In this document: positions 2,142-23,074 of the stretch, piece by piece | Numbering within the stretch: the stretch's first letter is position 1 | How the letters are laid out: each line of letters opens with the position of its first letter | Assembly (NCBI GenBank): GCA_947631115.1 | Contig: CANRKB010000017.1 | Span: 1 to 32,056 of the forward strand | Direction of reading: 5' to 3' | Source: an uncultured Clostridia bacterium | GTDB taxonomy: Bacteria > Bacillota > Clostridia > Oscillospirales > Ruminococcaceae | DNA length: 32,056 nt | Translations under genes and position numbers: made by a program | The notes under the pieces: model-generated | Seen by the model: only the letters and a program-made list of their open reading frames with translations | Database searches by the model: none | What the model was told of the DNA's origin: nothing

Positions 2142-2954
2142 TTACGGTATAACGGGGAAGAAATTAAGCGTTATAACTCCCGCGAGAAGCGCCAGCATTA
2201 TAATCGACGCCACAATATCCCTCGGCGCTATTTTCAGCCGGCGCATACGCGTTCTTCCCTCTCCCCCTCTGTAGCAGCGGCACTCCATGGCGGTTGCCAG
2301 CTCGTTTGCACGCTTGAACGCCGAAAAGAAAAGCGGAATAAGAATGGGAATAAGCGCTTTGGCTTTCTGAGCGATATTTCCCGAATCAAGCTCCGCGCCT
2401 CTCGCCTTTTGCGCTGACATTATCTTGTCCGTTTCTTCTACAAGCGTAGGGATAAACCTAAGCGCGATCGTCATCATCATCGAAAGCTCGTGAACGGGAA
2501 AATGAAGTTTCTTAAGCGGCGACAGAAGTCTTTCTATTGCGTCCGTGAGCATAATCGGAGAAGTCGTATAAGTAAGCAGCGACATTCCGACAATGAGCGC
2601 TATTATTCTCAAAAGCATAAACGCCGACATTCTCAGTCCTTCGGGATATATTGAAATTATCCACCACTGAAAAAGCGGAGTTTCTCCTTTTATAAAAAGC
2701 ATATTCAATATCGCCGTGAATATCATCAGCGGCAATATGGGCTTTACGCTCTTTATTATCATAATGAGCTTTATTCCCGAAATTATATAGCATAGCGCCA
2801 TAAAAAACAGCCCTATGAAGATCCCCGTAAAGCTCTGCGAAACAAACAGTATAACAAGATATACAATATCCAGCAAGAGCTTTACACGGCTGTCCATTCG
2901 GTGTATGACCGAATTTCCCGGGAAATACTGCCCGACAGTAATGTCCTTTATCAT
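2142..2954 (-). CDS. ecfT: EcfT, energy-coupling factor transporter transmembrane protein
   Basis: 270 residues, a membrane scaffold that couples the two EcfA ATPase domains to exchangeable S components. The start block IKDITVGQYFPGNSVIHRMD followed by DSRVKLLLDIVYLVILFV is typical of EcfT. Several transmembrane helices precede two cytoplasmic coupling motifs: AQKARGAELDSG (about residue 180) and AMECRCYRGGEGRTRMRR (about residue 222). In the second, Cys replaces Ala and Gly of the common EARGY form, a conservative variant. The ribosome site AAGGAT lies just before ATG and borders the CTCTAG-type repeat. The gene is 123 nt downstream of the fused ecfA and 2 nt from the radical SAM gene. Confidence 0.93.
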   Translation of the reverse strand: MIKDITVGQYFPGNSVIHRMDSRVKLLLDIVYLVILFVSQSFTGIFIGLFFMALCYIISGIKLIMIIKSVKPILPLMIFTAILNMLFIKGETPLFQWWIISIYPEGLRMSAFMLLRIIALIVGMSLLTYTTSPIMLTDAIERLLSPLKKLHFPVHELSMMMTIALRFIPTLVEETDKIMSAQKARGAELDSGNIAQKAKALIPILIPLFFSAFKRANELATAMECRCYRGGEGRTRMRRLKIAPRDIVASIIMLALLAGVITLNFFPVIP

Positions 2955-2963
2955 CTTTTATCC

Positions 2964-3100
2964 TTCTAGAGGCTAGAGTATCAGAGGCTAGAGGCTAGAG
3001 TTATATTCAAACGTTATTATTCTGTTTGGGTGCGTTTGACTCTAACCTCTGACTTCTAACCTCTGACTTCTAACCTCTTACTTCTTACCTCTTACTTCTA
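2964..3100. repeat. Inverted CTCTAG/CTTCTAAC-type repeat tract between ecfA and ecfT
   Basis: The left part (2964-3001) is AGAGGCTAG-type repeat on the plus strand. The right part (3039-3100) is CTCTAACCTCTGACTTCTAA-type repeat, in effect the inverted version, around an AT-rich centre (about 3002-3038). The two halves could pair. The whole ecfA-ecfT intergenic gap consists of this tract. It also runs into ecfA: the TAA stop (3080-3078) and the last few codons (VRGKK) are repeat sequence. No gene is seen in it. Confidence 0.8.
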
Positions 3101-4856
3101 AAAGCGAAATTATTCGCTCTTTTGCCCTCTCAACCGTATAAATATCGTTTCCTATATCAACGCCCAAGGCTTTCAGCTTATGGGAAAATCTCGTTATCTG
3201 CGGAACGTCAAGACCTATGCTTGCAAGCTCGTCCGTTTGCTCAAATACCTTGTCGGTATAGTCGAAGCAGAAAACTTTTCCCTTGTTCATGACAAGCACC
3301 TTTTCGGCGTATTTTACTATGTCCTCCATTGAATGTGAAACAAGCAGCACCGTTTTTCCCGAAGTCCGCTTGTATTCTTTTATCAGGTCGAGTATCTTTT
3401 CCCTGCCCTTTGGGTCAAGTCCCGCGGCAGGCTCGTCGAGAATAAGAATTTCGGGATTCATTGCAAGCACTCCCGCAAGCGCGGCGCGGCGCTGTTGTCC
3501 GCCCGAAAGGTCGAACGGCGATTTTTCGAGAAGGTGCGTTATGCCCATACTCTGCGCGGCGGACTTTACGCGCTCTTGAATTTCTTCCTCGGAAAGTCCC
3601 ATATTTGTCGGACCGTAGGCTATATCCTTTGCGACGGTCTCTTCAAAAAGCTGATGCTCGGAATACTGGAAAACAATTCCGACCTTAAATCTTATGTCGC
3701 GGATATTTGCTTTCTTGTCGCGAATGTCCTTTCCGTCGATAAGCACAATGCCGCTCGTCGGCTTTATAAGCCCGTTTAAGTGCTGTATAAGCGTGGATTT
3801 TCCGCTTCCCGTATGACCGATAATGCCGATAAATTCCCCGCGCATTATTGACAATGTCACATCATCTACCGCTGTTTTTTCAAACGGCGTGCCTACGGAA
3901 TATTTATAGGTTATATGCTCCAGGCGCGCAGCTTCTTCGGTCTTTTCCTCGCGGACAATATCGGCTTTCTTCTCTGCGCTTGCCGTCTTTGATTTCAAGG
4001 GAAGCATTGAAACGGCTTTCGCACATTCTTCTTCAAAAATAATTTCCTCGGAAATATCCGCTCCGCCGGCTCTAAGCATTTCGCAGAGCTCCGTTACCTG
4101 CGGCACGTCAAGACCAATAGCGCGAAGCTCTTTTCCCCTTGCGAAGATCTTATGCGGCTCGCCGTCCATAAGCACCGAGCCTTTGTCCATGACGATTATT
4201 CTGTCAGCCTGCGCCGCCTCGTCCATATAGTGGGTTATAAGTATAACGGTTATTCCCTGCTCTTTATTGAGGCGCTTTATGGTTTTCATTACCTCGCGCC
4301 TGCCCTTGGGGTCGAGCATTGCCGTGGGTTCGTCCATGACGATACAGCGCGGCTGCATGGCGATTATTCCCGCAATGGCTACGCGCTGTTTCTGACCGCC
4401 CGAAAGCTGGTGGGGAGAATGTTCGCGAAACTCGTACATATCGACCTGTTTTAACGCTTCGTCCACGCGGCGTCTTATCTCCGTCGGCTCTATGCCGAGA
4501 TTTTCGGGAGCAAATGCCACGTCCTCTTCGACGATTGTCGCGACAAGCTGATTATCCGGATTTTGAAAGACCATGCCGACAGTTTTGCGAATGTCGTATA
4601 TCTTTTCTTCGTCCGAAGCGTCCATTCCGTCAACATAAACCTTTCCGCTTGAAGCGGTGAGAATGGCGTTAAAATGCTTTGCGAGAGTGGATTTTCCGCA
4701 GCCGTTATGTCCGAGAATTGCCAAAAACTGACCGTCGGGAACGGTAAAGCTCACGTTTTTTAAAGCCTCGGTCTTTTCGGTCACATTATCGTTTTCATCG
4801 AGCGTAACGTAATCATAGCAAAGATTTTCTACCTTGATTATATCCAAAAATATCAC
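3078..4856 (-). CDS. ecfA: Fused EcfA1-EcfA2 energy-coupling factor ATPase
   Basis: 592 residues with two complete ABC ATPase domains in one chain. Domain 1 has Walker [10 protein letters not shown] (K55), signature LSGGQKQR (151-158) and Walker B CIVMDEP (D175/E176). Domain 2 has Walker [10 protein letters not shown] (K353), signature LSGGQQRR and Walker [17 protein letters not shown]. Each ends in an IGLDVPQ(V/I)T block typical of EcfA proteins. A charged linker (about 270-308) joins them. Domain 1 resembles EcfA1 and domain 2 EcfA2, which many Firmicutes encode as two genes. It should energise several S components with EcfT. The start is uncertain: GTG at 4856 is only 2 nt from AGGA, and TTG at 4847 (11 nt away) is an alternative. 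Confidence 0.92.
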
Positions 4857-4892
4857 ATTCCTAAATAATTCTTATACATATAGTATACAAAG

Positions 4893-5025
4893 TTCAGACT
4901 GTATAAAAAGTCCTGCCTCAGACTGTAGAGAAAGTCTCAGATACGAGGAAGCGTTACTGCAACTAGCCTTAGTGGCTGTTGCAGTGACGCTGACGAAGTA
5001 GATGGGGCTTTATCTACAGTCTGAA
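4893..5025. mobile_element. MITE-like palindromic element in the ecf leader
   Basis: Perfect 11-bp terminal inverted repeats TTCAGACTGTA (4893-4903) and TACAGTCTGAA (5015-5025), with a second internal CAGACTGTA at 4919. The centre holds a long stem, GCGTTACTGCAAC (4951-4963) with GTTGCAGTGACGC (4978-4990), closed by AGCC/GGCT. It has no coding capacity. It lies between the leftward promoter at 5056-5085 and the ecfA start, so it would be transcribed as part of the leader. No clear target-site duplication was found, and a structured leader RNA is the alternative reading. Confidence 0.6.
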
Positions 5026-5055
5026 TTTCTCATTGCCTATAAAAATACATTTTAT

Positions 5056-5085
5056 ATTATACTACAAACCAAAGACCAAAGTCAA
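5056..5085 (-). promoter_or_regulatory. Promoter of the ecfA-ecfT-radical SAM operon
   Basis: On the minus strand TTGACT (5085-5080), an 18-nt spacer and TATAAT (5061-5056). The leader to the ecfA start is about 195 nt and carries the palindromic element at 4893-5025. Confidence 0.7.
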
Positions 5086-12416: not shown

Positions 12417-13193
12417 ATGCGGAAAATTTTACTGTTCGGGAAAATTTCCGAACATGAAGGAAAGATATACGGAGCGGCGGCTTATGTCGCGGCGGGGCTT
12501 GTAAAGCTCGGACTTTGCGCGTGTGTTTTTGCAAAAGTAAACGAAAGCGAATATGACAAGGTGTGCGCGTTTTTTGACGAAAACGGGATAAATAAAGACA
12601 ACCTTTTTACCGATAAATACACGCTCGACGACTCGGGAATAAGCGCGGTTTTTGTGACGGGAGATTTTGTTTCGGACAATATGGGGCTTATAATTGACCT
12701 TTCGGACAAGTACAGGGCGCTCGAGATACCTATCATTTTCGACCCCGGAAGCGAATGTGAAGACGTTGAAAGCTTAAACGAAATAGCGAGGACTTCTACG
12801 GTTTTCGTGCCGTCTTCCGAAGACGCGCTGAGGCTTTGCAACATGACGGACCCGAAGAAAATTGCCGAGCATTATCTGTCGCTCGGGGCGCATAAGGTTG
12901 TCGTAACGCTCGACAAGCAGGGCGCTTATTACGAGAGCCGCGTTGAAAGCGGAACTGCGCCGACTTTCCGCGCGGACAACGTAATTGACACGACGGGCGC
13001 GGGCGACGCGTTTTCCGCGGGACTTATAAGCGGCATAGCGGACGAGCTTCCGCTGGGAGAAGCTGTCGTAAGGGCGAACGCCTGCGGCTGTATAGCTATC
13101 CAGCACGAGGGAGTTTATATGCCGAACGCCGCGGAGCTTAGAGAATATATGCTTTCGCATAGGTTTGTGGTGGACGGCTGTAAGGATTTCTGA
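12417..13193 (+). CDS. PfkB-family carbohydrate kinase
   Basis: 258 residues, shorter than the usual 300-320. The ribokinase-fold signature DTTGAGDAFSAG (191-202) carries the anion hole and the catalytic Asp (D197). The N-terminal substrate-side motif is degenerate: YGAAAYVAAGLVKLG (18-32) in place of GGxxxNxAxxxxRLG. IFDPGSE and VFVPSSEDALRL match the central part of the fold. It should phosphorylate a sugar or nucleoside-like hydroxyl using ATP, but the substrate cannot be named. It lies 17 nt after hisS and about 20 nt before the HAD-fusion gene; a kinase next to a HAD phosphatase hints at phosphosugar turnover, which is inference. Confidence 0.85.
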   Translation: MRKILLFGKISEHEGKIYGAAAYVAAGLVKLGLCACVFAKVNESEYDKVCAFFDENGINKDNLFTDKYTLDDSGISAVFVTGDFVSDNMGLIIDLSDKYRALEIPIIFDPGSECEDVESLNEIARTSTVFVPSSEDALRLCNMTDPKKIAEHYLSLGAHKVVVTLDKQGAYYESRVESGTAPTFRADNVIDTTGAGDAFSAGLISGIADELPLGEAVVRANACGCIAIQHEGVYMPNAAELREYMLSHRFVVDGCKDF

Positions 13194-13213
13194 GCTTTAC
13201 ACGGTGAATGTTG

Positions 13214-14779
13214 ATGACGCTTTATGTAACTGACCTTGACGGAACGCTCCTGAAAAACGACAAGACTCTTTCAAAGCGTTCCGTAAAAACGCTGAACAGG
13301 CTCATAAAAAGCGGCGCCGCCGTTACTTATGCGACGGCGCGTTCTTTTACGAGCGCAAGTCCGCTGATAAATTCAATCGACTTCAACTTCCCCGCTGTCA
13401 CTTTCAACGGGGTTTTTATAGTCGACCCGAAAAGCGGGGAGCATATAATTGAGAATATTTTCAGCAAGCAAGCGCTTAGAGCCGCAGAAAAGTTTATAGA
13501 GGAAAACGCTCTCGCGCCGCTCGTCTATTCGTACATAGACGAAAAAGAGCGCGTGTCTTATCTCGAAAACAGACTTAGGGACGTTTTTAATTATGTAAAT
13601 TCAAGGCGGGGCGACAAAAGGCTGAGAGCGGTTTCGGACTATAAAGAGCTTTTTTTCGGAAACGTTTTTTACATAACGCTTTTCAACGTCACGGACGCAG
13701 AAAAATGCGACGCGTTCTTTTGCGAGGAAAACGGATTTTCCCATAACGTTCAGGCTGACAACTATGACGACATGATATGGTATGAGATATACGGCAAGAA
13801 CGCGGGCAAGGAAAAGGCTGTTTTACAGCTGAAAAAGCTCTTAAATGCAAACGAGCTTATCTGCTTCGGCGACAGCTTTAACGATATGAAAATGCTGAAA
13901 CTCGCGGACGTCGGAGTTGCGGTCGAAAACGGCTGCGAAGAACTCAAAAAAGCGGCGGATGTTGTTATTGAAAAAAACGAAGACGACGCGGTAATAAGAT
14001 TTATAGAACAGCGTGAAAGTAAGCTCTTAGACCGAAACGAACGCTTTGACAAAGCGGTAAAAGCCGCGTTCGACCGCATAAAGGGCGCGCACGGCTCGGT
14101 CGGCACGCAGAATGAAAAGCTGATACACGCGGCGCTTAAAAACTACTACGCGCCGTTTTTTGACGAGCAGGAAATAAAGATCGCGAATTATTTCGCGGAC
14201 GCGGTTTCCGAGGACGGGATATTTGAAATACAGTCGAGGCAGTTTTACCGCCTTTGCGAGAAGCTGAAAGCGTTTCTGCCCGCGGCAAGGGTGAACGTTG
14301 TTTACCCGCTCGTTTGCGAAACAAAGACGGTGTATATAAATACCGAGAGCGGAGAAACGAAGGAAACTCCCAAAAGGAAAAACAATTCCCTGCTGAAAGC
14401 CTTTGAAGAAATTTACTCGATAAGGCGATTTTTACGCGACGAAAATCTGACGGTCATTATAGCGCGGATCGCCGCTGAAAAGAGAATTTACTACAATGGC
14501 GAACATATTCCCGACATCAGGAAAAAGTCGGAAAAGAAAAAGTGCATTATAGAAAACGTTCCCGTAAGGTTAGTAGAGGAGATAGTGTTTAAAGGGCGAA
14601 GCGGGTATAAAAAACTGCTCCCCGAAAACTTGCCCGAAGAATATACAAAAAAAGAATTTCTGAAAACAGCGGGAGACGCGAAAAGCTCTCTAAAACTTGA
14701 GATACTCAGAGAAGCGGGAATAATAAAACGCATTGGAAAAAGAGGAAAAGAATATCTGTATAAAACGGAGGACGTATGA
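13214..14779 (+). CDS. HAD (Cof-type) phosphatase fused to PD-(D/E)XK-like and winged-helix domains
   Basis: 521 residues from the ATG at 13214, which sits 6 nt after GGTGA; an ATG at 13208 is an alternative. Residues 1-265 are a Cof-type HAD hydrolase: motif I TDLDGTLL (D7/D9), motif II YATARS (T41), Lys in NAGKEKAV (K199), motif III/IV CFGDSFNDMKML (D220, D224). From about residue 300 a different domain begins: helix NEKLIHAALKNYY, then EQEIKIANYFADAV, EDGIFEIQSRQF and VNVVYPL. D329-x8-E338-x-Q340 resembles the active site of PD-(D/E)XK nucleases with a Gln variant (as in BglII). The end (about 478-517: YTKKEFLKTAGDAKSSLKLE, ILREAGIIKRIGKRGKEYLY) looks like a winged helix. Its stop overlaps the addB start (ATGA), so the two are translationally coupled. 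Nuclease activity is inferred. Confidence 0.8.
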   Translation: MTLYVTDLDGTLLKNDKTLSKRSVKTLNRLIKSGAAVTYATARSFTSASPLINSIDFNFPAVTFNGVFIVDPKSGEHIIENIFSKQALRAAEKFIEENALAPLVYSYIDEKERVSYLENRLRDVFNYVNSRRGDKRLRAVSDYKELFFGNVFYITLFNVTDAEKCDAFFCEENGFSHNVQADNYDDMIWYEIYGKNAGKEKAVLQLKKLLNANELICFGDSFNDMKMLKLADVGVAVENGCEELKKAADVVIEKNEDDAVIRFIEQRESKLLDRNERFDKAVKAAFDRIKGAHGSVGTQNEKLIHAALKNYYAPFFDEQEIKIANYFADAVSEDGIFEIQSRQFYRLCEKLKAFLPAARVNVVYPLVCETKTVYINTESGETKETPKRKNNSLLKAFEEIYSIRRFLRDENLTVIIARIAAEKRIYYNGEHIPDIRKKSEKKKCIIENVPVRLVEEIVFKGRSGYKKLLPENLPEEYTKKEFLKTAGDAKSSLKLEILREAGIIKRIGKRGKEYLYKTEDV

Positions 14780-17700
14780 TCAAATTCATCGAGAACAGCG
14801 CGGTCTATGACGTGTCGGGAAAAATGCGCGAGGAATTGTGCGGGGCGCTTTCAAAAACCGATGAAACGGTTTTTCTGATTGTGCCGGATCAGTTTGAATT
14901 CGAGACCGAAAAGACGGTATATTCCTTTCTTGAAAAGAGCGGACTGCTGACAGAACTTTGCAGGGTCAACGTCACTACGTTCACTTCCCTGTCGCGGGAA
15001 ATTCTCGAAAGCGAAGGCGAAAATATGCCGCCCGCGGACGATACGGTGAAGAACGTAATAATGAACAAAGCCGTCCGCGAGCAGAAAAATCTGCTCTGCG
15101 CCCTGGGAGGAGCCGCGGAAAAATCGGGCTTTTGCAGGAAAATGGTCGATACCGTCGGTCAGCTCAAGGCGGCGGGTATTAAAGCGGAAGATCTAAGCGG
15201 CGAGGGCGGTCTTTTTCTGTCCGAAAACAGCGGCATGACCGCCGTCATAAGAAAGCTTTCGGACGTCGGAAAAATATTCGCAAGCTACGACAGTATGCTT
15301 TCAAAATACGCGGACAGTCTCGATTATACAAAAAAGGCTTCGGAGATAATTTCAGATAAGGACAACAACTTTTTTGAGGGTTCATGGGTATTTGTCGACT
15401 GCTTTAACGACTTTACGGGAAGCCAGACGGAATTTATCCGCAGAATGATATCGAAAGCAGAAAACGTTGTGTTTGCGTTTGTAACGGGTGCAAAAGACGA
15501 CAAGCGCAAAAACGTTTTCGACAGGATACTTTCACAGCGAAGCAGGATTTGCGGCTATGCCGAGAGCGAAAACATCGAAACCGAAACGCAAAACGATAAT
15601 TTCGATAAAAGGCTTAGCGGAGCGCTGGGCGAACTCTCGGAAAAAATCTTCGGAAACGAAAAGAGTAAAGCCGACCCGAGCGGCTGTTTAGAACTTGTAA
15701 GCGCGCGCGGAGTTTACGAGGAGGCGGACTATACCGCTGCGAAAATAAAAGAGCTTTGCCTGGATAAAGGTTTTTTATACCGCGACATTGCGGTCTTGTG
15801 CGCGGACGCGGAAAACGGAAAATATATCCGCGACGCGTTTGAAAAATATGAAGTTCCGTTTTTCCTCGATATGCCCGAGCCTATACTTTACCGTCCGCTC
15901 GTAAACTTCTTTATCACGCTTTTGAAAGCGCTGATAAATTTCACCGCCGACAATGTTCTCATCTGCCTTAAAACAGGGTTTTACTGCAAGCGTTCCGACG
16001 ACGGCATAAGCGCTATTTCAAACAAGGAGATCGACACTTTTGAAAACTACGTTTTTGAATGGAATCTTTCGGCAAAACACCTGAAGAAAGAATTTACTTT
16101 CGGCAAAGAAAATAACTTCAACCGCCAGCAAGCCGAAACCGTAAGACAGGCTGTAGCCGTTCCTATTCTCGAACTTCGCGAAGAACTTAAAAACAAAGAC
16201 GGAGCGGGGATTACGCGCGCTCTCTATGATTTTGCCGTAAACAAAGCGGATATAGAAAGAGCGCTTCATTCGCGCTGTTACGACCAAAGCGGAAACTTCG
16301 ACAAAGAAGCCGTCGAGCTTAATCAGCAGGTCTGGAACTCTTTGGCGGAGATATTCGGCGTGCTTGAAGAAGAGCTTTCGGGAGAAAACATTTCGCTCGA
16401 AGAATACTACAGGCTGTTTTCGGATATTTGCGCTCAGACTTCCCTTGCAAAGCCGCCGCAATACCGCGACTGCGTTCTTGTCGGCGATATAAGCAGAACG
16501 CGCGCGGGAAACATAAAAGCCGCGTTTATTGTGGGCGCTTCTTATGAAAAGCTTCCCGAGGCTTCTTCGGGCATGGGTATCTTTTCGGAATACGAGGCTG
16601 AACTTGTCACAAACCTTATTAGAGAAAACACCGACAGCGACGATATACGCGCGCGGTCGCTGAAAGACATGAAAGACCAATACAACCTCTCGCTGTACAG
16701 AGCGTACAGGGCTGTTTCCCTGCCGACAGAATTTCTGAGCATAAGCTGCCCCGAATACGATTCTTCGGGAAACAAGATCTCTCGTTCGACTATCTTCGGC
16801 GACATAAAACGCATGTTCCCGAATATTAAGACAATAAAAGCCGAGGAGCTTGATTTTCTGTTTTACTGCCGCTCGATAAAAGCGACAAAACAGCGCTATG
16901 CCCAAAGCCTCGGTAAAAAAACGAAAGCTTTTTATGCCATGCGCAAATATCTCGAAAACAACGGAAACGAGGATTTCGTAAAAAATCTCGACGAGATAAG
17001 ACAAAAGCACGGTTCGGAAAACGCCGCCGTTTATACCGTATCGGAAAAATCATCAAAACAGTTGTTTAAAAATTCTCTCGGCAAAAACGGAGATATTGAC
17101 ATAGGCGCGACTCAGATAGAAAAGCTTATGCTTTGTCCGTTTTCGTTTTTCTGTACGAAAGAACTCGGTATCCGCGAGATAAATAAACGCGAGTTTAATA
17201 TTTTAAGCCGCGGCAATGCCATGCACTTTATCATGCAGAAAGTTTTTGAACAGTATAAAGGCAAGACCGAAGAGTTCTTAAAGCTCGAACATAGGGATCT
17301 TCTGAAGCTTTCGAGGGACTGTCTTTTTGAATTTCTGAAACTTAATACCAACGGCGATACCGAGGACGACAAGAGGACCGCTTTTCTTTTCGCAAACATC
17401 GCTTCTTCGGCTGCCGACCTGCTTCTCACCATGCAGACCGAGCTTTCCGTAAGAGAGTATTATCCCCAGTTCTTTGAGATGAACATTTCAAAAGAAAGCG
17501 AAAACAAGGTTGAGTTTAACGCGGCAAGCAAAAAAGAATTTACGCTTTTTTCCAAGCCTATAGCGATAGAAATTTCGGACGATACCGAAGTTCATATCGG
17601 AGGAAACGTTGACAGGCTCGACGCCATGTACGCCGAAAAAGACGGCAGACCGCGTATGTATCTCAGGGTCATCGACTATAAGTCAAGCGCGAAGTCGTTC

Positions 17701-18246
17701 AACAAAGAAGCCGCAAAAAGCGGCGTCCATGTACAGATGCTTTTGTATCTGACGGCGCTTTGCAAGGCTAACTCCGACAACAAAACGATAGACGTTTTCC
17801 CGGGCGAGATAAGCTATATCTCCTCTAAAAACGCCGGTACGGCAAAAACCCGGCAAGAGGCGCTGTATCTTCTCGAAATGAACTACCGTCCCGAGGGGCT
17901 TTACATAAACGACGAGATAATTGAAAGCGATCTTAAAAAACTTACAGAAAAGCTTATCTCCTGCATACAGACCGACGACGAAGAAAAAAAGCGGAAGATC
18001 GCCGAGAAAATAATCGGCTCGTTTTCTCTAGGCGAAGACAACTCCGTAGGTTCTGATGAATTTAAAAAGCTCGCGGACGAATGTATCAAAAACATAACCG
18101 AAAAGTTAAAGAAAATTTACGGCGGTGACGTAAGCGCCGTTTTGCTTGATCTTCCCGAGAAAGATCCAAACGGAAATAAGATCGACGCGCCGAACCCCTG
18201 CAAATACTGCGAATTCGGCGGTATCTGCCATAACCGCAGAGTATAA
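14776..18246 (+). CDS. addB: AddB subunit of the AddAB helicase-nuclease (RexB-like)
   Basis: 1156 residues, the usual AddB length. With AddA it resects double-strand breaks for RecA-dependent repair. The C-terminal RecB-type nuclease is intact: NAMHFIMQKVFEQ, VDRLD (D946), VIDYKSS (D967, K969) and HVQMLLYL. The four iron-sulfur cysteines that clamp this domain are present: C787 (LMLCPFSFF) and C1142, C1145, C1151 (CKYCEFGGIC). The N-terminus (IKFIENSAVYDVSGKMREEL, then VFLIVPDQFEFETEKTVY) aligns with AddB but has no Walker A GxGKT, so helicase ATPase activity should reside in AddA, as in lactic-acid bacterial RexB. GGAGG precedes ATG; the gene overlaps the HAD fusion by 4 nt and is 11 nt before addA. 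Confidence 0.93.
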   Translation: MIKFIENSAVYDVSGKMREELCGALSKTDETVFLIVPDQFEFETEKTVYSFLEKSGLLTELCRVNVTTFTSLSREILESEGENMPPADDTVKNVIMNKAVREQKNLLCALGGAAEKSGFCRKMVDTVGQLKAAGIKAEDLSGEGGLFLSENSGMTAVIRKLSDVGKIFASYDSMLSKYADSLDYTKKASEIISDKDNNFFEGSWVFVDCFNDFTGSQTEFIRRMISKAENVVFAFVTGAKDDKRKNVFDRILSQRSRICGYAESENIETETQNDNFDKRLSGALGELSEKIFGNEKSKADPSGCLELVSARGVYEEADYTAAKIKELCLDKGFLYRDIAVLCADAENGKYIRDAFEKYEVPFFLDMPEPILYRPLVNFFITLLKALINFTADNVLICLKTGFYCKRSDDGISAISNKEIDTFENYVFEWNLSAKHLKKEFTFGKENNFNRQQAETVRQAVAVPILELREELKNKDGAGITRALYDFAVNKADIERALHSRCYDQSGNFDKEAVELNQQVWNSLAEIFGVLEEELSGENISLEEYYRLFSDICAQTSLAKPPQYRDCVLVGDISRTRAGNIKAAFIVGASYEKLPEASSGMGIFSEYEAELVTNLIRENTDSDDIRARSLKDMKDQYNLSLYRAYRAVSLPTEFLSISCPEYDSSGNKISRSTIFGDIKRMFPNIKTIKAEELDFLFYCRSIKATKQRYAQSLGKKTKAFYAMRKYLENNGNEDFVKNLDEIRQKHGSENAAVYTVSEKSSKQLFKNSLGKNGDIDIGATQIEKLMLCPFSFFCTKELGIREINKREFNILSRGNAMHFIMQKVFEQYKGKTEEFLKLEHRDLLKLSRDCLFEFLKLNTNGDTEDDKRTAFLFANIASSAADLLLTMQTELSVREYYPQFFEMNISKESENKVEFNAASKKEFTLFSKPIAIEISDDTEVHIGGNVDRLDAMYAEKDGRPRMYLRVIDYKSSAKSFNKEAAKSGVHVQMLLYLTALCKANSDNKTIDVFPGEISYISSKNAGTAKTRQEALYLLEMNYRPEGLYINDEIIESDLKKLTEKLISCIQTDDEEKKRKIAEKIIGSFSLGEDNSVGSDEFKKLADECIKNITEKLKKIYGGDVSAVLLDLPEKDPNGNKIDAPNPCKYCEFGGICHNRRV

Positions 18247-18257
18247 AGGAGCAGAAA

Positions 18258-21200
18258 ATGAGTGAAAGTAAAAACGCCGGTAAAAAACCCACAAAAGAAC
18301 AAGAAGAAGCAATAAGCGCCGCCGTGTATGAGCCGTCGGTGGTTTCGGCTGCGGCGGGTACTGGAAAAACGACAATGCTCGTGGAAAGAGTGTTGAGGCT
18401 TATTTCCGATACCGAAAATCCCGTCAGAGCGGATTCGCTCGTTATACTTACATTTACAGTAAACGCAACGCAGAATATGCGCGACAAGCTCACCTCGGCG
18501 CTGGCTAAACGCATAGAAGAACTTGAAGACGTAAGCGAGCGCGACTTTCTCGCAGAGCAGTCTTCAAGGCTCAGAAACGCCTGTATCTCTACGATAAACT
18601 CGTTTTGTCTGGGAATAATAAGGGACAATATCGAAAAATTCGACCTGCCCGTAAACGTTGCTATTGCGGACGAAACGAAGATAGCGTCTATGAAAACGGA
18701 CGCTGTCGAACTTGCGAAAAAGGATTTTTACACGGGAGATACATTTAGCGAAGACGAAAGAAAGCTTCTTTTCTATTCGTTCGATTTCGAGGACGACAAA
18801 GCGCTTTTTGACACCGTAGTTTTCGCCCAAGACAAGCTCAGTTCTTATGCCGACAGCGAAAAGTGGCTCAAAGACGCGGTTTCGGCTTATGACGGCATGG
18901 ATACTCTTATAGAAGCGTATATGCCCGTTTATACGGCGTTCGCGCAGGAACAATACGACAGAGCTTTGCACTATCACGAAAAGCTTTCGGAATGTTATAA
19001 AAATTATAACGCGCAGTATGAAACGGAAGCGGACAAGAAAAAGAAAGAAAAAAAGCAAAATGTCTTAAACTCAATGTCCGATTATCTGGACTGCCTTTCA
19101 AACATAGAAAAACTTCTTTCGGACTTTTTAAACGCTCCTACGCTCGAAAATCTCGAAAAGCTTACTGTTGCCGCTCAGCTCGGCTCGCCGAAACTCGGCA
19201 GAGAAGACCCGAAGAGCGACGCTAAAAAAGCCTTTACTTTAAACAAAAATTATGCGGATACGGTATTCGACGAACTGGGAAAGATCGCTTGTTCAAAAGC
19301 CGAAGAGGAAAACAACCTTTCCCATAACAGAACGGTAATTTCGGCGTTTGTAAAGCTGCTTAAAATTTACGAAAAGTATTTTAGAGATATAAAACGTTCG
19401 GCGGGATATATAGACTTTTCCGACTGCGAACTGCTTTTGCTTGACAAGCTGAAAAATGACGACGGTTTCCGCGAGCTTCTCTCAAAGAAATTTTCATGCG
19501 TAATAGTAGACGAGTTTCAGGACTGCAACGACGTTCAGGCGGAAATTTTCAGGCTCATGGGAAAAGACCGTCAGTTCTATGTCGGCGATATAAAACAGTC
19601 TATCTATGCCTTTCGCGGAGGCGATCCCGAAATAATGGCGGGGCTTTGCAAGGGCGAATACGGCTTTAAAGAGTATTTGCTTACGAAAAATTTCCGAAGC
19701 AGACAGTCTGTCATAAACACCGTAAACGACGCTTTTTCGGGGCTTATGACCGAAGAACACGGCGGCGTTGATTATGGAGAAAAGACAAAGCTCGTCTACG
19801 GAGCGGATTATCCCGACGCGGAGGACAACTCCGTTTACGACTCGGAAATTTATTCGGTAAACTCAAAGGAACAGCCGCAGTTTGTCGCTCGGAAAATTCA
19901 AGAGCTTATGAACGACGAAAACTTTAAGATAACCAAAAACAAAGAGCTTTGCAGACCGAATTATTCGGACTTTGCCATTCTTATGAGAAACAACAAAAAG
20001 TCCGCCGAATATCGTGAAGCGCTCTCTCAGCTCGGTATATCGTCCGTTGTTTCGAGCGGGAAAAATATCCTCGAATCCGAAGAAGCGGCGATGCTCGTAA
20101 GTTATCTTAAAGTTATAGACAACCCGCTTTGCGACAAAGAGCTTTTGCATATCCTCATGTCGCCGCTCTACGGAATGACCGCGGACGAGGCGGCAAAGAT
20201 GAAGCTCGGAACGCTCGGACTTTCGGATAAACTAAAAGATGAAGAAACGAAAGATATTTCGGAAAATCTCAGAAACTATGCGCTTTACGAATGTCTGAAA
20301 TTCTGCACGACGGAAAAAAACAATCCCTCGGAATATACTTCCGAAAAAAAGCAGAAAGCCGAAGAATGTGAAAGAAAGCTTTATGAAAAAGGCGAAAAAA
20401 GAAAAATAAACGAAAAGGCGCTCGCGGCAGAACGCGATATAGAACGCTTCCGCAGATTTATGAGCAACAACTCCGTCGTCGACCTTATACGGAAGATCTG
20501 CGCGGAAACGGATATTTATTCCGTCATCTGCGCTCTTGACGAAAGCGCAAAAAGAACGGCAAATCTAAGGCTCTTTGAAAGGACAGCGGAGGACTTTGTT
20601 GCCCGCGACGGCGGGACGCTCTGCGATTTTCTGAGGTTTTTAAAAAGGTCGGGAGAAACTCAGCGCGGCGAAATTGAAGAAGCGTCCGTTCCCGAAGACG
20701 CGGCAAACTCCGTCAGAATAATGACGTTTCATGCGAGCAAGGGGCTTGAAATTCCCGTTTGCATACTCGCCGAGCTTCAGACGGCGTTCAGCAATAAAGA
20801 CTATTCGGGAAAGTTCCTTATAAATCACGACAAGTATTTTTCGATTAACTATGTTGACCGTGACGCGCGGTTTAAGTCAGACACCTTTGCGCACAAAGCC
20901 TTAGGTCTTTTAAACAAGAAAAAACCCGTAGGCGAAGAATTAAGGCTTCTTTATGTCGCAATGACAAGAGCGATGGAAAAGCTTATTATGGTCGGGAATT
21001 TTAAAGACGAAGAAGATGTTCCGACATTTCTTCCCGACTTTTACAGCGGGACAATTCCGTTTAAGTGGATATTGAGAAAGCTTATCGAAAAAGGCTATAA
21101 GACAACTGCGGTTACAAACATAAAAGCCGAAGAAAAAGCGATAAGCGCCGCGCCCGAAACAGAAGAGGGCGTCGACATAACGGAAAATGAACTGAAAGAA

Positions 21201-21842
21201 ATAATAGACAAAAAATATCCAAACGAAGCCGAAACAGTTCGCCGCATAAAGTATTCGGTAACCGAGCTTGCGCATAGAAATGAACCAATGCCGTTCGTAC
21301 TTACAAAGCCTAAGTTTGCGGCAAAGTCCGAAGTTTTAGGCACCGACGTCGGAAACGCCTATCACCACACCATGGAGCATATTTCCCTTTCGGCTGTCCG
21401 CTCTTCTTCGGATATGAACGCCGCCGTAAAAGAAGCGGTGTCGGAATTATGCAAGACGGGAAAACTCACCGAAGAGGAAAGGCTGCTGGTAAACAGCGAA
21501 AGGATAGTTAAATTCTTCAAGGGCGACTTAGGGCAGAGAATGTTAAACAGCCGCCGCATTGAACGCGAACGCTCGTTTTACGCGGAAATCAGCGGCTCGG
21601 ATATTCCCGATATAGGAGAAAACGCAGCTATACAAGGGCAGATAGATATGTTTTTTGAAGAGGACGACGGAATCGTTATAGTGGATTATAAGTCCGACTC
21701 AAAGGAAAATTTAATAAAGGAAAAAGAGAATTATTCGCTTCAGGTGAAAATTTACGCGGCTGTCGCTCCGAAGCTTTTCGGAAAGCCCGTAAAAGAAATT
21801 TATCTCTATTCCTTTGCAAACGGAGAGGCAGTAAAGGTTTGA
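18258..21842 (+). CDS. addA: AddA helicase-nuclease subunit
   Basis: 1194 residues. A UvrD/PcrA-type superfamily 1A helicase: Walker A SAAAGTGKTTMLVERVLRLI (K37), motif Ia VILTFTVNATQNMRDK, Walker B VIVDEFQDCND (D418/E419), motif III YVGDIKQSIYAFRGGDP, motif IV-type LLTKNFRSR, motif V VRIMTFHASKGLEIPV, motif VI EELRLLYVAMTRAMEKL. The C-terminal RecB-type nuclease has HHTMEH, GQIDMFF (D1130), IVDYKSD (D1143, K1145) and SLQVKIYA. With AddB it forms the two-nuclease, Chi-regulated break-processing complex of Firmicutes. AAAGGAG lies 6-7 nt before ATG. The TGA stop overlaps the TTG start of the propeller gene. Confidence 0.96.
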   Translation: MSESKNAGKKPTKEQEEAISAAVYEPSVVSAAAGTGKTTMLVERVLRLISDTENPVRADSLVILTFTVNATQNMRDKLTSALAKRIEELEDVSERDFLAEQSSRLRNACISTINSFCLGIIRDNIEKFDLPVNVAIADETKIASMKTDAVELAKKDFYTGDTFSEDERKLLFYSFDFEDDKALFDTVVFAQDKLSSYADSEKWLKDAVSAYDGMDTLIEAYMPVYTAFAQEQYDRALHYHEKLSECYKNYNAQYETEADKKKKEKKQNVLNSMSDYLDCLSNIEKLLSDFLNAPTLENLEKLTVAAQLGSPKLGREDPKSDAKKAFTLNKNYADTVFDELGKIACSKAEEENNLSHNRTVISAFVKLLKIYEKYFRDIKRSAGYIDFSDCELLLLDKLKNDDGFRELLSKKFSCVIVDEFQDCNDVQAEIFRLMGKDRQFYVGDIKQSIYAFRGGDPEIMAGLCKGEYGFKEYLLTKNFRSRQSVINTVNDAFSGLMTEEHGGVDYGEKTKLVYGADYPDAEDNSVYDSEIYSVNSKEQPQFVARKIQELMNDENFKITKNKELCRPNYSDFAILMRNNKKSAEYREALSQLGISSVVSSGKNILESEEAAMLVSYLKVIDNPLCDKELLHILMSPLYGMTADEAAKMKLGTLGLSDKLKDEETKDISENLRNYALYECLKFCTTEKNNPSEYTSEKKQKAEECERKLYEKGEKRKINEKALAAERDIERFRRFMSNNSVVDLIRKICAETDIYSVICALDESAKRTANLRLFERTAEDFVARDGGTLCDFLRFLKRSGETQRGEIEEASVPEDAANSVRIMTFHASKGLEIPVCILAELQTAFSNKDYSGKFLINHDKYFSINYVDRDARFKSDTFAHKALGLLNKKKPVGEELRLLYVAMTRAMEKLIMVGNFKDEEDVPTFLPDFYSGTIPFKWILRKLIEKGYKTTAVTNIKAEEKAISAAPETEEGVDITENELKEIIDKKYPNEAETVRRIKYSVTELAHRNEPMPFVLTKPKFAAKSEVLGTDVGNAYHHTMEHISLSAVRSSSDMNAAVKEAVSELCKTGKLTEEERLLVNSERIVKFFKGDLGQRMLNSRRIERERSFYAEISGSDIPDIGENAAIQGQIDMFFEEDDGIVIVDYKSDSKENLIKEKENYSLQVKIYAAVAPKLFGKPVKEIYLYSFANGEAVKV

Positions 21843-23074
21843 AAAAGTTTTTAGGTTTAATTATTTTGCTGTTATTTACGGCAATTTTAAGCGTCGGAGT
21901 TTATGCCGAAAGCGCGGGATTTATGGGAGAAAGCAGCGTCTTAAACGCAAGAACGCCCTACGACAAGGGTTATGTGGAAATTCGCTTCAGCACGGGAGAA
22001 GCGGAAACAGCGGGCGTGCCTCTTGCGTATAAGGAATTTTTGCTCTCGCCGACGGGAAACAAAATATTCAAGATAAACGAAAAAACGGGCGAAACAAAAA
22101 TGACCGCGGAGCTTGACGAAAAGGTCTCGGAAAATTCGCGCGGCGTTATAATGAACGACGTTCTTTTCCAGGCGACAAGGACGAAGCTTTTCGCGGTCGA
22201 CCTTGAAAACATGACCGTCAAGCTTTCAAAACAATTCGGCGAGATTACGACCGACGTTGCGGCTGTAGACAACCTTTTATACTTCGGTGTGAAAACAGAC
22301 GAGGGTTATTCGTTTATCTGCGCCGATTACGGCAATAACTTCGACGCGGTATGGGAATACAAAAGCGAATACCCCGTTACTTCGGCGGGACTGTACGGGG
22401 ATTTTGCGGTGTTCGGTTCGGGGAACAAGCTCGTTGTTCATGGAAAAGACAGCTATTCCGAAAACGAAATCGGCGGGAATTTAAAATACGTTTATGCGGG
22501 AAAATACGCGGTGTTTATGACCGCGGAAAACGGAAAACTTTATAAACTGCGCCTTAACAGCGAAGGAGAAGCCGAAGATCTTTTCGAACTCGAAATAGGC
22601 GGCGGCATAAGCGCTCCCGCGGAGATAGATAATAAGCTGTTTGTTTCATCGGAAAACGGGTTTTACGTTATAGACGCGCTGAATATGGAAGTGACGAAAA
22701 CCTATCCCGAGCTTAAAAACGGATGTTCTCCCGTTATTACAACGGGAAGCGGTTTCAGGGCGTATGTTGTAAGCCCCGTTGAATCAGAAGGAAAATGGTA
22801 TCTTTATTCCGTTCTTTCAAACGAGGACGAACTGTCAGTGAACGAAATAGTGAAGATAATAGATTTTACGGACGGGAAAATCGCCGTATCGGAAAGCGGA
22901 ACGATGTTTTTTCGCGACGCAAAAGGGCAGATCTATGCTCTCGCAATACGGGAAAACGATATACTGACAATTGTTATAAAGCTGCTGTTGTTTTTAGCGA
23001 TAATAGTTTTCCTTGTTCTTATTTTAAGAGCGTGGATCAAAAAACATTCGGACAAAACGCCGAAATTCACTTGA
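21839..23074 (+). CDS. Membrane-anchored extracytoplasmic beta-propeller protein, function unknown
   Basis: 411 residues starting at a TTG that overlaps the addA stop (TTGA); GGAGAGG and AAAGG lie just upstream inside addA. The start MKKFLGLIILLLFTAILSVGVYA is a clear signal peptide. The body (about 40-360) holds repeated PQQ/WD-like blade sequences such as KIFKINEKTGETKMTAELD, KLFAVDLENMTVKLSKQFG, FYVIDALNMEVTKTYPELK and WYLYSVLSN. A single hydrophobic helix (LTIVIKLLLFLAIIVFLVLI, about 373-392) and a basic tail (RAWIKKHSDK) end it. This predicts a propeller outside the cell held by one C-terminal anchor. I cannot name the family further. Its link with addA is positional; no DNA-repair motif is seen. 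Confidence 0.78.
   Translation: MKKFLGLIILLLFTAILSVGVYAESAGFMGESSVLNARTPYDKGYVEIRFSTGEAETAGVPLAYKEFLLSPTGNKIFKINEKTGETKMTAELDEKVSENSRGVIMNDVLFQATRTKLFAVDLENMTVKLSKQFGEITTDVAAVDNLLYFGVKTDEGYSFICADYGNNFDAVWEYKSEYPVTSAGLYGDFAVFGSGNKLVVHGKDSYSENEIGGNLKYVYAGKYAVFMTAENGKLYKLRLNSEGEAEDLFELEIGGGISAPAEIDNKLFVSSENGFYVIDALNMEVTKTYPELKNGCSPVITTGSGFRAYVVSPVESEGKWYLYSVLSNEDELSVNEIVKIIDFTDGKIAVSESGTMFFRDAKGQIYALAIRENDILTIVIKLLLFLAIIVFLVLILRAWIKKHSDKTPKFT

Follow-up and report, generated by a model that had tools for sequence, protein, structure and literature searches.

Why should a complete Cof-type HAD phosphatase be joined to a domain of an entirely different kind, and why should the gene for such a protein lie directly in front of addB and addA? 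These questions are raised by a fusion gene in the window, that is, the whole stretch of 32,056 nucleotides from an uncultured Clostridia bacterium analyzed here, where its neighbors are hisS, a PfkB-type kinase gene, addB, and addA. A sequence-only reading of the window had described the second half of the fusion as a PD-(D/E)XK-like nuclease followed by a winged helix, and had suggested a role in DNA repair or defense in step with AddB. The second half is a member of a chromosomal protein family whose nuclease-like active site is invariant and for which we found no model in Pfam, NCBIfam, PHROGs, or PADLOC, and its fusion to a HAD phosphatase together with its fixed place before addBA offers a concrete link to double-strand-break repair that can be tested. 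Among the matches listed in a search of open-licence papers by title and abstract, none describes this protein.

The fusion gene and its immediate locus

The fusion is encoded in a single frame with no internal stops (Table 1) and consists, as the sequence-only reading had it, of a complete Cof-type HAD domain and an unrelated second half, the CTD (residues 265–521). The proposed ATGA overlap with addB is also real, and is preceded by a GGAGGA ribosome-binding site. The products of addB and addA match their families over nearly their full length despite NCBIfam scores below the equivalog cut-offs. AddB contains the nuclease motif as well as the C-terminal cysteines, which presumably have an Fe–S role, while in AddA the Walker A motif was found by pattern and the nuclease motif by eye. 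The idea that the second half substitutes for a lost AddAB nuclease was dropped, because AddB (by motif) and AddA (by eye) have both kept theirs.

Two features of the flanking genes may be mentioned in passing. The PfkB-type kinase is only 258 residues long and may be shortened or diverged, since its Pfam match is confined to residues 104–236. Downstream, a 411-residue ORF with a TTG start (21839–23074, plus strand) overlaps the addA stop; its N-terminus looks signal-peptide-like by eye, and it has no family match above a cut-off.

Table 1. Features of the fusion gene and its neighbors in the window (residues are numbered from the ATG at 13214)
Feature	Coordinates	Strand	Remarks
PfkB-type sugar kinase, upstream neighbor	12417..13193	+	PF00294, E 4e-27
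HAD–(predicted) nuclease fusion ORF	13208..14779	+	523 aa from ATG 13208, 521 aa from ATG 13214
Cof-type HAD-IIB phosphatase domain, residues 1–264	13214..14005	+	D7, D9, T41, K199, D220, D224
Predicted PD-(D/E)XK core, residues 295–366	14096..14311	+	E301-x3-H305-x3-K309, E320, D329, E338-x-Q340
Candidate active-site half motifs	14198..14233	+	D329 and E338-I-Q340
Middle region, residues 367–465	14312..14608	+	Invariant E399; family consensus KSPKxG
Possible winged helix, residues about 470–518	14621..14767	+	Weak HTH matches
addB ribosome-binding site GGAGGA and ATGA overlap	14767..14779	+	Fusion stop/addB start at 14776–14779
addB	14776..18246	+	TIGR02773, 325.6 bits, under its equivalog cut-off
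addA	18258..21842	+	TIGR02785, 553.7 bits, under its equivalog cut-off

The HAD half

The HAD half matches Pfam Hydrolase_3 (PF08282) with an E-value of 2.4e-44 across residues 5–264 and NCBIfam HAD-SF-IIB with 75.1 bits (cut-off 41.8), and the presence of the full domain with motifs I–IV places it among the Cof-type HAD-IIB proteins; its score for the Cof-subfamily model TIGR00099 is 129.2, below the cut-off of 137, and gives no equivalog-level assignment. D9, T41, K199, D220, and D224 are identical in all 29 same-genus HADs, including that of the window, and D7 in 28, the remaining row having a gap; this row is probably L027, whose contig begins inside the gene.

The closest solved relatives are HAD-like hydrolases and phosphatases, which we take to have small-molecule activity. 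Capped HADs, to which the Cof type belongs, act on small molecules, and the HAD half probably hydrolyses a small phosphate ester. Removal of 3′ phosphates from DNA, previously suggested for this domain, is therefore unlikely.

Conserved residues of the second half

A scan of the genome collection confirmed 173 relatives of the second half, of which 80 were kept; alignment A2 comprises 79 of these and the window's own sequence. Nine residues (G297, E301, H305, K309, E320, D329, E338, Q340, and E399) are invariant in all 80 rows, and 79 of these share the spacing E-x3-H-x3-K-x10-E-x8-D-x8-E-x-Q. D329, E338, and Q340, on which the sequence-only reading had based its nuclease assignment, lie where it had placed them and passed this conservation check, while its residue list had lacked the equally invariant E301, H305, K309, and E320. 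The active-site residues of PD-(D/E)XK nucleases, that is, E, D, and (D,E)-x-(K,Q), are all present in this order. Of 18 additional loci, one of them (L032) a duplicate of an A2 row, 17 also carry the core motif; in the remaining one (L293), an insert precedes EIQ. In the middle region, the window's own sequence departs from the family consensus.

In two comparisons, dN/dS was lowest for the core (0.017 and 0.030), which indicates purifying selection there, intermediate for the second half as a whole (0.092 and 0.086), and highest for the HAD half (0.138 and 0.158). One same-genus copy, recorded twice (L030 and L064), is interrupted by an internal TAG in the nuclease half and is possibly defective; L030, the contig of which begins beside the gene, was omitted from the alignments and the tree, and L064 from A2. 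Loci L287–L293 make up a more remote branch of the family, and most of its members seen carry motifs resembling NESSLH, EIQTxNF, RRKSPKKG, and GSWRRKG; L292 has no usable frame from the match start and was omitted from alignment A3 and the enlarged profile.

Searches of family libraries returned no assignment for the second half. That of the window has no Pfam match at E ≤ 1 and one chance-level match in NCBIfam (E 0.021). The 25 members scanned gave single-member matches only (Pfam E ≥ 0.026, PADLOC E ≥ 0.011, and PHROGs E ≥ 0.017), and nine more distant members had nothing above cut-off in Pfam or NCBIfam. Comparison of the second half and members with PDB sequences yielded nothing below E 0.09, the hits being at chance level or HTH-like, and a crude plot of secondary-structure propensity was mixed. 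The winged helix of the sequence-only reading persists as a hint: the best HTH match (E 0.0012) lies under its cut-off and comes from a distant relative.

The weakly HTH-like C-terminus, the atypical ExQ site, and the metabolic neighbors of many stand-alone copies (described below) would also suit a PD-(D/E)XK fold that, together with a winged helix, acts as a DNA-binding regulator instead of a cutter, in which case the adjacency to addAB would be regulatory or accidental. We consider this improbable, as the candidate catalytic residues are invariant in all 80 sequences, which would be unexpected for an inactivated nuclease core.

Profile comparisons with nuclease families

Profile comparisons gave a mixed picture of the nuclease assignment. 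The second half was set against UPF0102/YraN, VRR_NUC, CoiA, and Mrr, as well as nuclease windows of AddB, by a home-made profile–profile alignment with column shuffles as the null. The reference profiles held 31 CoiA, 26 Mrr, 30 UPF0102, and 10 VRR sequences, four of 30 loci having been omitted for Mrr and five of 35 matches, which had no locus, for UPF0102.

UPF0102/YraN gave the strongest result, with a z-score of 4.47 (1 of 1000 shuffles as good) that became 5.04 with more diverse rows (1 of 2000), to be read as the best of four since four families were tried. VRR_NUC followed with 3.42 (3 of 1000) and 3.02 (14 of 2000). CoiA (0.90–1.28), Mrr (−0.13 to 0.23), and the three AddB nuclease windows (−0.79 to 1.53) did not rise above decoys, and reversed UPF0102 scored 1.15. 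The top z-scores of unrelated decoy windows were 2.98 in a set of 72 and 2.64 in a set of 76; the larger set includes AddA windows that perhaps reach the nuclease domain of AddA, before which the smaller set stops. In raw scores, UPF0102 (32.6) exceeds the best decoy (29.3), and VRR (21.3) falls below it. For known pairs, the same test against UPF0102 gave 7.42 for Mrr, 4.95 for VRR, and 2.86 for CoiA. The alignment of the second half with UPF0102 places D on D and EIQTR on EVKTR.

Against this, hhalign, run without secondary structure, found no match between the second-half family and the four PD-(D/E)XK families. Applied to these families themselves, it gave CoiA at most 1.4% with any of the other three, compared to 83.4% for Mrr–UPF0102 and 60.5% for UPF0102–VRR. 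The second half likewise has no match at E ≤ 1 to the Pfam models CoiA_nuc (PF06054) and PF02021, the latter a UPF0102 model with ExK; genome G000 has no PF06054 match, and a separate UPF0102 gene exists in the genome. The PD-(D/E)XK core of the sequence-only reading is favored by the YraN profile alignment and the residue pattern, while hhalign is silent. Judging from these sequence comparisons, we regard a nuclease fold as very probable and, with somewhat less assurance, an active nuclease as probable.

Fusion and gene order within the genus

The second half is encoded in 30 of 37 genomes of the window's genus, a genus of uncultured gut bacteria (its own genome included), and in all 30 loci addB is the next matched gene downstream. 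Among the 29 loci that show both halves, the window's included, these are fused in 20 and encoded by adjacent separate genes in nine; in the remaining locus, L030, the start of the contig beside the gene leaves the state undecidable. An assembly error is therefore not the origin of the fusion. The seven genomes without the second half do not prove its loss from beside addB, because four also have no addB match and in the other three the addB match extends to within 84 bases of a contig end. Named records L040–L065, which largely duplicate the G-handle genomes, were kept out of these genome counts.

In 25 of the 30 loci, the stop of the second half falls between −8 and +4 nucleotides relative to where the addB match begins, and in 13 it is at exactly −4; the other five distances are −35, +12, +170, +405, and +434, the last belonging to the copy with the internal stop.

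Other traits of these loci would fit a more neutral arrangement, in which the HAD would work with PfkB on sugar phosphates and have no more than a transcript in common with the nuclease and addBA. A pfkB match lies upstream of the HAD in 25 of the 30 loci, the solved proteins nearest to the HAD are hydrolases and phosphatases as noted above, and fused and split forms alternate inside the genus, with five label changes on the best tree, of which starred branches force at least two (for the fused label). However, the two halves are linked in all 29 loci showing both; in L031, HAD and CTD stay together with pfkB unmatched; and HAD–CTD fusions occur in other genera with no addB beside them. Neutral packing is a tentative explanation, although one to be taken seriously.

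Distribution beyond the genus

Of the genomes sampled, those with a member of the second-half family number 60 of 148 in the window's family and 13 of 398 across the phylum; the second-half family is chromosomal and mostly stand-alone. Among 24 genomes from the other families of the order, eight encode the protein, in stand-alone form. From 22 addB-bearing genomes of these families, 17 addB loci were fetched, two of which (L265 and L275) have less than 2 kb of upstream sequence, and in none of the 17 does a HAD or second half lie beside addB.

Among 72 further loci, a HAD match was found in two, namely L095, as a fusion, and L073, on the opposite strand at a distance of about 3 kb. The genome of L095 carries addB and addA on another contig. 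The 41 second-half loci from other genera of the window's family include three HAD fusions (L324 and L325 from genus g354, and L326 from g436) and one weak HAD-profile match in a neighboring frame (L317), and addB lies beside the second half in none of the 41. Long upstream extensions in L323, L327, and L328 have no HAD match and were read as an apparently non-coding frame.

In a tree of 75 rows, which included 16 of the 30 same-genus loci, the 20 HAD-linked rows form one clade (support 100/99) with the window's genus nested inside (100/100). The bootstrap had not fully settled, and a quick tree of 94 rows agrees on the HAD-linked clade (98). Most simply, the link to the HAD would therefore have arisen once and earlier, and the link to addAB later. 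The coupling to addAB proposed by the sequence-only reading was seen in all 30 loci of the genus, and in none of the 17 addB loci of other families or the fusions of other genera. The constant association with addAB across the family that would mark an AddAB subunit was not seen.

Genomic neighborhoods, mobile elements, and defense

In a set of 54 loci (L066–L119, including the fused L095, with five dropped by the gene caller), no common partner gene was found. Twenty neighbor proteins were named by Pfam. Stand-alone relatives have mixed, mostly metabolic neighbors, including glycogen phosphorylase, a D-Ala-D-Ala carboxypeptidase, and miaB adjacent to or close by certain copies; hence the neighborhood provides no general link to repair. 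In individual loci, MutS2 lies three genes from L067, a PcrA-like helicase accompanies four loci at a distance of two to five genes, and the stand-alone relative in L286 (5062–5907, minus strand) abuts a gene (2645–5059, minus strand) for a helicase with DEAD_2 and Helicase_C_2 domains, which we take to be of the DinG type.

The sequence-only reading had also considered defense. A predicted nuclease joined to another enzyme beside a recombination machine could be an anti-phage or mobile-element accessory; one relative gives a weak match to PADLOC CARF_PDDEXK (E 0.011), and seven Ruminococcus-type loci (L083, L091, L092, L098, L099, L102, and L107) have genes for phage terminase and portal proteins on the opposite strand, at a distance of three to six genes. 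That PADLOC match is the best among 25 members, and the PADLOC matches are at chance level with one member each. Moreover, no match was found in 50,697 phage and 72,556 plasmid records, and a search of viral contigs with the window's sequence, which reaches close relatives only since this was the sole query, confirmed none. Neither a real match to a known defense family nor presence in mobile elements was thus found, and gene order is constant in all 30 same-genus loci. We consider a defense role highly improbable.

Discussion

Taken together, we favor, with some reserve, the view that the second half is an ExQ-type PD-(D/E)XK nuclease with a winged helix, joined to a HAD phosphatase and made in step with AddB; its most likely role is that of a recombination or repair nuclease. 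In our model, H305 and K309 would sit on the first helix of the core, as in CoiA, and the conserved middle region would follow, leading to a winged helix that may hold the DNA. The domain would most likely do housekeeping work as a nuclease, nicking or trimming the intermediates of recombination or repair, as has been proposed for YraN and CoiA. Its fusion to a Cof-type HAD phosphatase would date from an ancestor of the window's clade, and the phosphatase would probably act on a small phosphate ester, for example a sugar phosphate or a nucleotide set free by the nuclease. The pair would have moved to its place directly before addBA in the window's genus, and on the strength of this position we propose that its production keeps pace with that of AddB and that both act on the same broken DNA. 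Being read together with AddAB, the gene may encode an overlooked recombination helper.

A bolder version would make the fusion a third, genus-specific partner of AddAB, in which the ExQ nuclease processes ends or strands exposed by AddAB and the phosphatase recycles or senses the released nucleotides. We hold this to be rather doubtful; if true, the repair machine would have a metabolic arm built in.

Comparison with known systems

The HAD half is like Cof-type HAD-IIB phosphatases (PF08282 and TIGR00099) in having the full-length domain and every motif residue, and unlike them in being fused to a predicted nuclease. For the second half, three nuclease families offer themselves.

COG5482, as described in the portion of PMC1189080 devoted to it, is an uncharacterized protein of about 230 residues that combines an archaeal-resolvase-like nuclease with a C-terminal winged helix, which is the architecture predicted here. 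Its motif is E–CD–ELK, however, and it occurs mainly in Proteobacteria; our comparison is with that description.

CoiA (PF06054) has E-x3-H-x3-K on the first helix followed by E, D, and E-x-Q, in an order identical to that of the second half. It differs in its longer spacings (modally E-x3-H-x3-K-x16-E-x10-D-x12-E-x-Q, in 17 of 31 sequences, with the pattern used fitting 26 of 31), in QRPD and QC motifs of its own that the second half lacks, and in its C-terminal part. The CoiA entry of PMC1189080 gives it a PD-EXQ site as in BglII and links it with DNA uptake and recombination, and ExQ is also reported for YhgA-like proteins in the relevant part of PMC1913061.

UPF0102/YraN (PF02021), finally, is the best profile match and shares the order E (on a helix), D, E-x-(K/Q)-T-R, and then a helix and a strand, whereas the second half has EIQ in place of EVK, an extra middle region, and a C-terminal part. 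In the text of PMC12455585 that concerns it, YraN is described as a helicase-associated nuclease with a possible auxiliary role in recombination during natural transformation. The resemblance of the second half to YraN and CoiA raises the possibility that Clostridia have a recombination-shaping nuclease of this kind of their own.
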